Below are positions 5,002 to 23,452 of a stretch of DNA of 25,851 bases, piece by piece; the first letter of the stretch is position 1, and each line of letters starts with the position of its first letter. The DNA comes from a virus: positions 1 to 25,851 of IMG/VR virus record IMGVR_UViG_3300003878_000004; one strand, 5' to 3'. Made by a program: the position numbers and the translations under genes. The notes under the pieces were generated by a model, which was not told the origin of the DNA, made no database searches, and saw only the letters and a list, made by a program, of their open reading frames with translations.

Positions 5002-8000
5002 TTATGCAGGCAAGGCTGCAGTTCTAATGTCGGGTAGCTTCATCGGAGAGTTATCGAAGTTCTTACCTCCGTCTGACCGAGGACCATTACCCTCATACTC
5101 TAGGCTTGCGCCGAATAAGTACAGAATGGCATCACCCGTATCTGTATCACCGTTTCTAGTGAGGCGTACTACAATGTTATCACCTTCCGTATATGGTAGA
5201 TCAGTAAGATCAATGTAGGCTTCTGCCAAAGTACCTGTAGAAGGTACAGAGCTTGAAACAACACGCTGATATAACGTAGAGCCACCAAAGCCTTGTCCTA
5301 AGGAAGTAGTGCGTACCTCAGCAACTAGGTCTGCATCCCCAGTACCGTCCATGATATAACACAGACGAAGACCTTTAAGTCTACCTGTATCCCAACGAAC
5401 GTTAGGCTGAATAGACCACAAAGCAGACTGAGGCCCGGTTGTAGTAAACCGTGCAGCAGGTACCTGAATGGCACCGTAGTTTGCATCAATGGCTGCGTTC
5501 GTAATACTCTTATTTCTAAGAGCAAGCTCCAGCTGAAAGCGATCCTCCATGAGATAGCTAAGGCTGTCGTAGGAAGCACCATTGTTTCGGTCAGTAAGAC
5601 TTACGTATGTAACACGGCCACCCTCGTTGGTGATGTTGGTAGGCTCAGAGTTGACACCGAATAGGTTGATAAACCCACCCTGACGTACAATCATGTCTCC
5701 ACCGTAGTAGTACACAAAGTTCTTGCGTGAACCTCTGTGTCGTACAGGGTCTCCGTTAGTGTCAACGATAAGAGTACCGTCACTTGTGTAGGCCCTACGA
5801 GAACCAAGCACTTCGAACTTACTTTGGATACGATATAGACCTGTACCGTCTACGTCACCTACGACAAGACCATTGCCGTTAGGTGTAATACCTTTGACTT
5901 GATCTACGTAGAAGTTCGTTACGCCTGCCCTAATTTCCGGATCACTATCCAGAACTAGGCCATTACTGTCTGCAAATGCTGCGTTGTTAGTCGCATTGTA
6001 TCGGAACTGGCTTAAATAACAATCAACACTAATCTTACCATTACCGTCATCAAAGCGCCAAGCCTCTTCTGTAAACCTATCGGCATACATTTCAGAGAAG
6101 TGACCAGAGTTAATAGAACTAGCATGTAAGCCGGAAGCAGCAAGGAAGTTACCCTGCAGTCCTACGCCTTGCATACGAACCTCATAAATCTGTTCTCCAA
6201 GAGAAGCAGCCTTAACAACTAGCATCTTGTCTAAAGCAGCAATTGCTTTAATACATCCGTCTGGATCGCCCGGAAGGGTCGAACTAGCCGATACGTCAGA
6301 TGTAGAGGCAGACCCGTACCAATTACAGTTACCTGTCTGGTAGAGTGTCTGAGCAGTATGATAGGTTTTAGGCAACAGCTTAAGAGTACCCCCAATTTCT
6401 TGTAGGTAATCAATTGCTGCCTGAATAGCAGGACCATCATCAAAAGTGGGGTCATCACCACGGGCACCGAAGTCTTCGGGTGTCGCCGTGAACGGGTCCC
6501 CAAGGCTAGTTACTTTCGGGATAAATCGGTTAGCCCGCTGGTAGTACAGATTATCCATACGTACACTGTTGACTACGCTTGCAGTATTATTAAACAAGCC
6601 GAACTTAACTAAGTCGATCTCCTCAAAAGAAGAGCCTCCTCGGTAAGCCGCGATCTCTACCCCATTTGCCATGACAACAAATGAACCGTTAGACAAACCA
6701 GTATCAGGCTGTCTAACCTCAATACTGTAATCCACGTACTCTAAAGAAGCTGCGTCGGGAAGACGCACTGTACGCTTGTGGTTAGTACCGCCATCACGTA
6801 CACGAAGCACTACAGACGCAGGCCTACCGCCAGAGCTAATAAAAGCTAAGGAAGCAACAATCGTACTTGCACCACTGTTTAAAGAAAGAAAAGTAGTCTC
6901 CGTAACACCTGTCTCAGATATAAACGCATCTCTGTCCGTAAAGGCTACAGAGGTGCCAAAAATAGCATCAGTTACGCCCACACTAGGTACAAAAGTACTT
7001 GCCTGTGGGACAGCAGTAAGATTTAACCTACCTCCACTAACAGTAGCGCCGGGGTTTACAACAGTGTACCCTCGGTCCTCTAAAGTAGTAGACCCTTCAA
7101 AAGTTTCTTGGCGTACATAAACCCGGTTAATGAGTTCATCGTATGCTTTCCATTCGTCGGACTGTGCATTGTAATAAAGCATAGAGCCATCGGTAGTACC
7201 TGCAGTGTCGCGGAACTTAAATATCTGATCCAAGTCTGTGACACCAGCACTGTCTCCACGTAGCCACGAGGCCAAAAGACCAGCAGCTTTAAGACGGTTT
7301 TCTATGTTACTAAAATGGGTTTCATCATCAGTCTGTAGAGTAAGCTCACTTACGTCAGGGTCCAGCATCTTTTCTAGGTCACATACGGTACCACCCAAAA
7401 ACTTTGCAGCTAGGGCTTGGCAGTAATTGATCTGTTGCAGCTCATTAACACCTGTGGTATCAGAGGCTGCAATTCGAGCAGGTTGGGACATGTACATAAG
7501 CACTGGATCAGATACGTCACCGTAAGCCCACACGTAATGAGAAAATACAGCCCAGTTAAATCGCTTCATTCCTAATGTCGTAGTAACATCAAGTACCTCA
7601 AAGGTACCGCCTGTAACATTATCTTTTCCCGTACTGTCATACAGACAAGTAACTAGGTTACCATTTACAGAACGTACTACGCCCGCTAGTTTAGAAAACT
7701 TGCCATCTGTAGGCACAGAACACACAAAGCGATTGCCAACTTCTACTGCATGACCTGCTTCAAGCTCAATGGTAGTAGTTGCTCCGGAGGTAATACCTAC
7801 GATAGACACTTTGCGGCCCTCTAGTACACCAGCAGGAGACTTGCGTGAATTTGTACCGTCACAGTCCCAGTAAGTGTTAGGACACTGCCCACGGGCAGCT
7901 GCGGCGATAATAGCGTCTTTTACCCGATACTCCCAGCTCTGTAGGCGAGGTACCGTAATTAAAGCTGCAGGTCCGTTTCTATTGAAAGGACTGCTTAAAT

Positions 8001-8877
8001 CTCCAGCTGCCTCGGCTGCATCGGATAAAGCGTCGATCTCTTCATAAGTACGTGCCCTAATTCTAGCCCCAGTCGTATACTCTACAATAGTATCGGCTAT
8101 AATTGGATAGGTGTCTCCTGCACCGGACCAAGCCCAGTTCTCCAAGTTATCTTTAGTAAGACCAGATAATTTAAAGTCATCCAAGGCTAACTCAACGATA
8201 CCGTCAGAACCTACACCAATGTGCTGGATACTTGTGCCTGTTAAAAGAATACGTATATGTGCTTTAGACTTACCGTATACGTTAGTAGGATCAAAATTAG
8301 GAGAGTAGTCAGGAAAGTCTAATCGCTCCCGCCACTTCTGAACAGCAAGCTCAAAGGTAGTCTCTACCCAGTTAGTTCCGTCAAAGACACGATAGACATC
8401 TACGCCAGAAGAATTATCTCTCCACGGTAAATGCACGTAGTCTGGCGCAGTGTCAGAAGCGACAATGGTGAATATATTTGCTTCTACACTCGTACGTACT
8501 GCATCCGATACTGTGTCTGTAATATCAGCTAAGTCTACCCGTCCGTCTACTAACTCGTGATATAGCATTAGGGCGTGTTTAGCCTGATTGTCCAAGTTAG
8601 GTCGAGTAATGTTAGACCCGGCAGAGAAGGATGTGTACATCTGTGTTTTAGGCACAGTACGCGCAATCTCTACAACATCTCCAACAACAAGCCTATTGAT
8701 TAGCAGCTCTGTGTCACTTATCCAACTAAAGTCATTGTAGTAGGCTGGATTACCTGCCCCGTCAAGGGCGTCGTTAATTCTCACAGTCACATGATCGCGA
8801 GAAAGAATACCTAGAGCAAAATTAAGTGGGAACGTAGCTTGTCCCTGATAGGTAGTTCTAATAATTGAAAGGGCCAA
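5002..8877 (-). CDS. Tailspike with T7 tail-fibre N-terminus and enzymatic domains
   Basis: This 1291-aa receptor-binding protein is more than twice the length of T7 gp17 (553 aa). Residues 1-125 match the T7 tail-fibre anchor (start ALSIIRTTYQGQ, then YTSFSAGSNITRPNLDNQAK). Residues 205-545 look like an SGNH/GDSL hydrolase: strand ILLTGTSI with Ser216, and block-V-like DDETHFSN with Asp518 and His521, interrupted by a probable beta insertion at 350-430. Residues 590-785 look like a beta-sandwich ending MDNLYYQ. Residues 797-1090 begin with DFGARGDDPT and DDGPAIQAAIDYL, typical of pectate-lyase-like beta-helices. The C-terminus is beta-rich. It should bind and degrade or deacetylate surface glycan. 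The start is TTG with AGGAGG five bases before. Confidence 0.88.
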   Translation of the reverse strand: MALSIIRTTYQGQATFPLNFALGILSRDHVTVRINDALDGAGNPAYYNDFSWISDTELLINRLVVGDVVEIARTVPKTQMYTSFSAGSNITRPNLDNQAKHALMLYHELVDGRVDLADITDTVSDAVRTSVEANIFTIVASDTAPDYVHLPWRDNSSGVDVYRVFDGTNWVETTFELAVQKWRERLDFPDYSPNFDPTNVYGKSKAHIRILLTGTSIQHIGVGSDGIVELALDDFKLSGLTKDNLENWAWSGAGDTYPIIADTIVEYTTGARIRARTYEEIDALSDAAEAAGDLSSPFNRNGPAALITVPRLQSWEYRVKDAIIAAAARGQCPNTYWDCDGTNSRKSPAGVLEGRKVSIVGITSGATTTIELEAGHAVEVGNRFVCSVPTDGKFSKLAGVVRSVNGNLVTCLYDSTGKDNVTGGTFEVLDVTTTLGMKRFNWAVFSHYVWAYGDVSDPVLMYMSQPARIAASDTTGVNELQQINYCQALAAKFLGGTVCDLEKMLDPDVSELTLQTDDETHFSNIENRLKAAGLLASWLRGDSAGVTDLDQIFKFRDTAGTTDGSMLYYNAQSDEWKAYDELINRVYVRQETFEGSTTLEDRGYTVVNPGATVSGGRLNLTAVPQASTFVPSVGVTDAIFGTSVAFTDRDAFISETGVTETTFLSLNSGASTIVASLAFISSGGRPASVVLRVRDGGTNHKRTVRLPDAASLEYVDYSIEVRQPDTGLSNGSFVVMANGVEIAAYRGGSSFEEIDLVKFGLFNNTASVVNSVRMDNLYYQRANRFIPKVTSLGDPFTATPEDFGARGDDPTFDDGPAIQAAIDYLQEIGGTLKLLPKTYHTAQTLYQTGNCNWYGSASTSDVSASSTLPGDPDGCIKAIAALDKMLVVKAASLGEQIYEVRMQGVGLQGNFLAASGLHASSINSGHFSEMYADRFTEEAWRFDDGNGKISVDCYLSQFRYNATNNAAFADSNGLVLDSDPEIRAGVTNFYVDQVKGITPNGNGLVVGDVDGTGLYRIQSKFEVLGSRRAYTSDGTLIVDTNGDPVRHRGSRKNFVYYYGGDMIVRQGGFINLFGVNSEPTNITNEGGRVTYVSLTDRNNGASYDSLSYLMEDRFQLELALRNKSITNAAIDANYGAIQVPAARFTTTGPQSALWSIQPNVRWDTGRLKGLRLCYIMDGTGDADLVAEVRTTSLGQGFGGSTLYQRVVSSSVPSTGTLAEAYIDLTDLPYTEGDNIVVRLTRNGDTDTGDAILYLFGASLEYEGNGPRSDGGKNFDNSPMKLPDIRTAALPA

Positions 8878-23029: not shown

Positions 23030-23452
23030 TTATTCTCCCATTTCTAAGGTATGTGTATGCTCTGTCGTAGAGAAGCCCATTCTATTCAGAAGAGATGTTG
23101 TTCTCTCTGAGCTAGTGGACAGGGTACTCATAACAACGGCATCTACCTTGAGTTCACGGCCCGCCTGTATAAACTTGTGTAGCAGTGCTACACCAGTCAT
23201 ACTTCGGTCCTCGGCGTACCAGCCTATCTCTAGGAGGAGGGTGCGATCTCTAAACGGGTCCTCGTAGACTGCGCCTACGATTGCCCCGGTATCGGCACAA
23301 AACACTACTCCATCTTCTATTAACTGACGGAGGCTGGTTCGGGCCTTGTCGGGGTTTAGAGGCACATCCATGTATTTGTCGTTAAATACATGGGCTATGT
23401 CTAATATATGCTCTAAGTCTTCTGCTTCCGCCCTTTTTACTTTGTATACCAT
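23030..23452 (-). CDS. GNAT-family N-acetyltransferase
   Basis: This 140-aa protein has the GNAT layout. An N-terminal strand-helix (VKRAEAEDLEHILDIAHVFN) is followed by VVFCADTGAIVGAVYE, then TLLLEIGWYAEDRSMTGVALLHKFIQ at about 71-96 as motif A. There, the usual Q/R-x-x-G-x-G/A acetyl-CoA loop is weakly conserved. LLNRMGFSTTEHTHTLE at 121-137 is the typical final strand region. It would transfer an acyl group from acetyl-CoA to an unknown phage or host target. The start (ATG) overlaps the preceding small gene by 16 bases, and the stop abuts the next TTG start. GNAT genes occur upstream of the portal in several T7-like phages. Confidence 0.8.
   Translation of the reverse strand: MVYKVKRAEAEDLEHILDIAHVFNDKYMDVPLNPDKARTSLRQLIEDGVVFCADTGAIVGAVYEDPFRDRTLLLEIGWYAEDRSMTGVALLHKFIQAGRELKVDAVVMSTLSTSSERTTSLLNRMGFSTTEHTHTLEMGE

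Follow-up and report, generated by a model that had tools for sequence, protein, structure and literature searches.

The tailspike of a virus record of 25.9 kb (IMGVR_UViG_3300003878_000004; the whole stretch analysed, 25,851 nucleotides, is here called the window) appears to carry an SGNH hydrolase domain that is split by an inserted beta-barrel. Taken as a whole, it is quite probable that the protein is the tailspike of a T7-like podophage, whose SGNH domain would O-deacetylate a host surface polysaccharide and is followed by lectin-like and probable beta-helix modules. The features are collected in Table 1, in which residue numbers refer to the 1291-aa open reading frame.

Table 1. Modules and candidate active-site motifs of the tailspike, with window coordinates
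Feature	Residues	Coordinates	Strand	Basis
Tailspike gene	1-1291	5002..8877	-	1291 aa, TTG start, aggagg upstream; Phage_T7_tail at N-terminus
T7 gp17-type tail-attachment domain	1-120	8518..8877	-	PF03906, E=2.4e-7 over 15-120
SGNH hydrolase domain (predicted)	205-545	7243..8265	-	AlphaFold2 models, VIA-align top rows, homologues
Block I GTSI, candidate nucleophile Ser216	214-217	8227..8238	-	Invariant in ten-member alignment
Block II NWAWSG, candidate oxyanion Gly252	247-252	8122..8139	-	Invariant in ten-member alignment
Block III GTNS (GxND-like), candidate oxyanion Asn343	341-344	7846..7857	-	Asn343 invariant
Inserted FCCH-like beta-barrel	352-432	7582..7824	-	UBA1/UBA6 FCCH-region matches
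Block V DDETH, candidate Asp518 and His521	517-521	7315..7329	-	Both invariant
Galectin/ConA-like beta-sandwich	637-784	6526..6969	-	Galectins, Z up to 9.8; Foldseek E 1.8e-4; low-confidence model region
Beta-helix N-terminal cap-like motif DFGARGD...DDGPAIQAAID	795-844	6346..6495	-	phrog_3918, phrog_7458
C-terminal region, presumed beta-helix and C-terminal sandwich	845-1291	5005..6345	-	Presumed from position

An SGNH-type esterase domain had been proposed from a sequence-only reading of positions 7240-8265, a span equivalent to residues 205 to 545/546, and structure prediction of the region around residues 200-550 with a structural search had been suggested as a check. The AlphaFold2 model of residues 178-800, which includes the beta-sandwich, had low confidence (pLDDT 53.5), so residues 186-547 were refolded alone (pLDDT 66.8, pTM 0.73), giving a model of moderate confidence that is low around residues 251-280. 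In both models, strands and helices follow one another in the order typical of SGNH enzymes. In the 186-547 model, five core strands with intervening helices (210-213, 245-247, 335-338, 459-463 and 497-499) build an alpha/beta/alpha core that fits the parallel five-stranded sheet of the superfamily, and in which beta1 precedes Ser216, beta2 precedes Gly252, beta3 precedes Asn343, and the loop with Asp518 and His521 precedes the last helix. Structural matches to this model were almost exclusively SGNH hydrolases: going by the entry titles, every one of VIA-align ranks 1-47 was an esterase, acyltransferase or lipase of the SGNH/GDSL type, including PatB (8TLB, Z 16.3), the tailspike gp63.1 of Escherichia phage G7C (4QNL, Z 15.3, 189 residues, 3.1 A, among the top three), Ape1 (Z 14.7) and acetyl xylan esterases (Z ~14), and two strong matches (E 2.5e-18 and 6.1e-18) were found among viral predicted structures. 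The predicted models thus support the assignment of residues 205-545 to the SGNH hydrolases and bear out the proposed alpha/beta SGNH core.

Relatives of the domain are remote. Beyond the N-terminus, tblastn found a single phage relative, gp20 of Pseudoalteromonas phage vB_PspP-H6/1 (KX257490, ANJ65527; 24.7% identity over residues 140-584), which is annotated with pfam13472 and itself matches PF13472 at E=1.4e-5, below the curated cut-off. Single-sequence queries with the SGNH region or the C-terminal region retrieved no relatives from viral_contigs; alignment-driven searches gathered eight distinct IMG/VR relatives (L003-L008, L010 and L016) and one protein from a gammaproteobacterial MAG. 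A scan for a DNA pattern yielded no further relative, its match in L021 sitting in what appeared by eye to be a non-relative. Like the window protein, H6/1 gp20 and the IMG/VR relatives have the SGNH core, the same inserted barrel and the conserved S/G/N/D/H residues, and most have the following beta-sandwich; unlike it, they have other N-terminal domains and the block III sequence DHxHND/E, at about 20-28% identity, and several of them lack a C-terminal beta-helix-like region. The MAG protein (L017 5827-7044) is a stand-alone, secreted-looking SGNH protein of 405 aa with the same barrel insertion and could be a cellular counterpart; among 369 genomes of its class, a full-length match was found in the seed only.

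Family-level comparisons also lead to known SGNH enzymes. PF13472 was matched by six of the ten family members (best E=3.6e-7); where members were scored individually, the match fell short of the curated cut-off. A sequence search of the PDB with the family profile A4 reached 7DDY, an acetyl xylan esterase (E=9.3e-5), and placed GTSI on GDSI at block I and DETH on DRVH at block V. A chance motif in a protein with no SGNH domain is therefore highly improbable: direct scans gave the window domain no Pfam GDSL, PHROG or NCBIfam match, but fold matches of Z 14-16, PF13472 homologues and invariant catalytic residues all speak against it. The family, of which about ten members were gathered, has no Pfam model of its own, and its barrel-split SGNH form is missed by standard annotation in this genome.

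The proposed active-site residues are those that the family keeps. In an alignment of ten members, comprising the window protein, the eight IMG/VR relatives and the MAG protein, with H6/1 left out, 26 columns are invariant and include Ser216, Gly252, Asn343, Asp518 and His521. Invariance is rare among residues of the same types in the domain, even across these remote relatives: two of 26 Ser (216 and 296), two of five His (219 and 521), four of 28 Asp including Asp518, and two of 17 Asn (247 and 343). The chance that all five SGNH positions would be invariant was put at ~6e-5 in a residue-type-matched estimate that ignores phylogeny. Ser216 in GTSI, previously named as candidate nucleophile, was numbered exactly and occupies the block I position after beta1, and the Asp-x-x-His of block V, assigned earlier to Asp518 and His521, lies within DDETH; Gly252 and Asn343, which the earlier reading had not named, are likewise present and invariant.

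Block III of the window protein is unusual, reading DGTNS versus DHxHND/E in the relatives, so that two His and an Asp are absent and Ser344 replaces the Asp of GxND; within the ten-member alignment this change is confined to the window member. A frameshift was considered as the cause of the odd block and was rejected, as the other two frames contain stops and do not encode HNHND. The proline of DxxHP is Phe in the window protein (DETHF), which is also the most diverged member of the family, at about 20-28% identity to the others. These substitutions and this divergence could indicate that the domain keeps the SGNH fold with little or no catalytic activity and functions solely as a platform for carbohydrate binding. 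We consider this unlikely, since all five SGNH residues are kept despite divergence of the domain to ~22-28% identity, and the block III Asn, the oxyanion-hole supplier, is among them.

The beta-rich insertion noticed earlier at 350-430 was recovered in both models, with strands at residues 355-429 that follow block III and precede the fourth core strand, and could be named as an FCCH-like barrel. It superimposes on the FCCH region of the ubiquitin-activating enzymes UBA1 and UBA6 with Z 8.8-8.9 and rmsd 2.0-2.2 over 78-80 residues, sufficient to assign the FCCH fold; the likeness is one of fold only, with no functional link to ubiquitin. Structural comparison also showed a resemblance to phage tail-tube and head-tail proteins. 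No sequence family matched the barrel itself; phrog_584 was matched by four of seven relatives, with a location that presumably lies in the barrel. The insertion is common to the relatives, and the literature searched gave no account of an FCCH domain within SGNH spikes of phages.

The N-terminus places the protein on a T7-like tail. PF03906 scored 31 bits against a cut-off of 25.2 in the Pfam scan of the spike, identifying a Phage_T7_tail domain, and tblastn matched Rhizobium, Paracoccus, Stappia, Agrobacterium and other podophages, with 30-42% identity confined to the first ~113-138 residues. The match to alphaproteobacterial podophages ends there, at a sharp module boundary. Since only these residues match such phages, the spike looks like a T7-type attachment domain that acquired its SGNH module by exchange. 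The phage is T7-like. The closest counterparts of its tail nozzle protein are those of Paracoccus phages and of phage MedPE-SWcel-C56 (host given as alphaproteobacteria), and these nearest phages suggest an alphaproteobacterial host.

Downstream of the SGNH domain and the beta-sandwich, the cap-like motif matched phrog_3918 (E=2.5e-4) and phrog_7458, a tail spike family (E=1.6e-3), and residues 795-844 gave weak tblastn matches to Acinetobacter and Klebsiella spikes. The rest of the C-terminal region had no profile match, including to a Pfam beta-helix, and no PDB sequence match. A beta-helix depolymerase domain is therefore only suggested, and by the cap-like motif alone. In three relatives (L007, L008 and L010), beta-helix-cap-like motifs (GDGVTDD..., recognized by eye) directly precede the SGNH domain, and L007 also matches End_N_terminal; this position suggests that the SGNH domain was grafted into beta-helix spikes in these relatives.

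Based on this architecture, the T7 gp17-type domain would fix the presumably trimeric spike to the tail. Ser216 would act as the nucleophile, with Gly252 and Asn343 forming the oxyanion hole and Asp518 and His521 together serving as the general base. The FCCH-like barrel, which lies between blocks III and V, probably influences how the substrate reaches the active site. The putative enzyme would most likely remove ester-linked (O-acetyl) groups from the host surface polysaccharide during adsorption, and the galectin-like sandwich and the probable beta-helix would bind that polymer too and might also cleave it. SGNH spikes that remove acetyl groups are now recognized as a common alternative to depolymerases. 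Demonstrated deacetylases or esterases include G7C gp63.1, Possum gp66, Aristophanes gp41 and two Klebsiella prophage fibres (PMC13123978, PMC9569702, PMC8471582), and by analogy with these, O-deacetylation of host polysaccharide is the likely role of the spike. G7C gp63.1, an O-antigen deacetylase, likewise has its SGNH domain in a tailspike, but it has other N- and C-terminal domains and no significant sequence-profile match (hhalign, family profile A3), and the stretch matched in its SGNH domain is 238 residues long, against 348 here; being 110 residues shorter, it has no comparable barrel insertion. Acinetobacter phage Aristophanes gp41 and Pectobacterium phage Possum gp66 are podophage spike or fibre SGNH proteins with demonstrated O-deacetylation, to which the present spike is likened by description rather than by sequence.

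Alternatively, the SGNH enzyme could be active on a different ester or perform acyl transfer, for example as a peptidoglycan O-acetylesterase/transferase or a lipase. In line with this, the top structural matches include the peptidoglycan-acting enzymes PatB and Ape1. Similarity of SGNH folds cannot tell substrates apart, however, and the domain sits in the portion of the tailspike that faces the host, adjoining lectin-like and beta-helix-type modules; comparable phage spikes that have been tested act on O-acetyls of surface polysaccharides. This alternative is thus quite improbable, and polysaccharide O-deacetylation is retained as the preferred role.

SGNH tailspikes are already known; the present T7-type spike, which joins a barrel-split SGNH domain to a probable beta-helix in a single chain, is a variant of them, of which no description was found in the literature searched. 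With this family, the SGNH set comes to include a barrel-split form. In the published examples consulted, SGNH and beta-helix domains are on separate proteins (PMC13320782, PMC11058221). The T7-like Vibrio phage Peru-2 has the same two predicted activities, but in two separate genes, P2_41 (a T7-like tail-binding domain with a pectin-lyase spike) and P2_42 (a GDSL esterase), whereas here they are probably fused in one polypeptide (PMC13320782). A bolder reading, which we put forward tentatively and with some doubt, is that of a two-enzyme spike, in which one chain deacetylates and then cleaves the polysaccharide, the barrel acts as a substrate gate, block III has been rewired (DGTNS), and the domain represents a distinct SGNH subfamily without its own model in the libraries scanned. 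If one spike does have both activities, it could be asked whether deacetylation must precede chain cleavage. In addition to the putative deacetylase spike, the same phage encodes a predicted acetyltransferase (window 23030-23452, minus strand; phrog_1249, E=2.6e-11).
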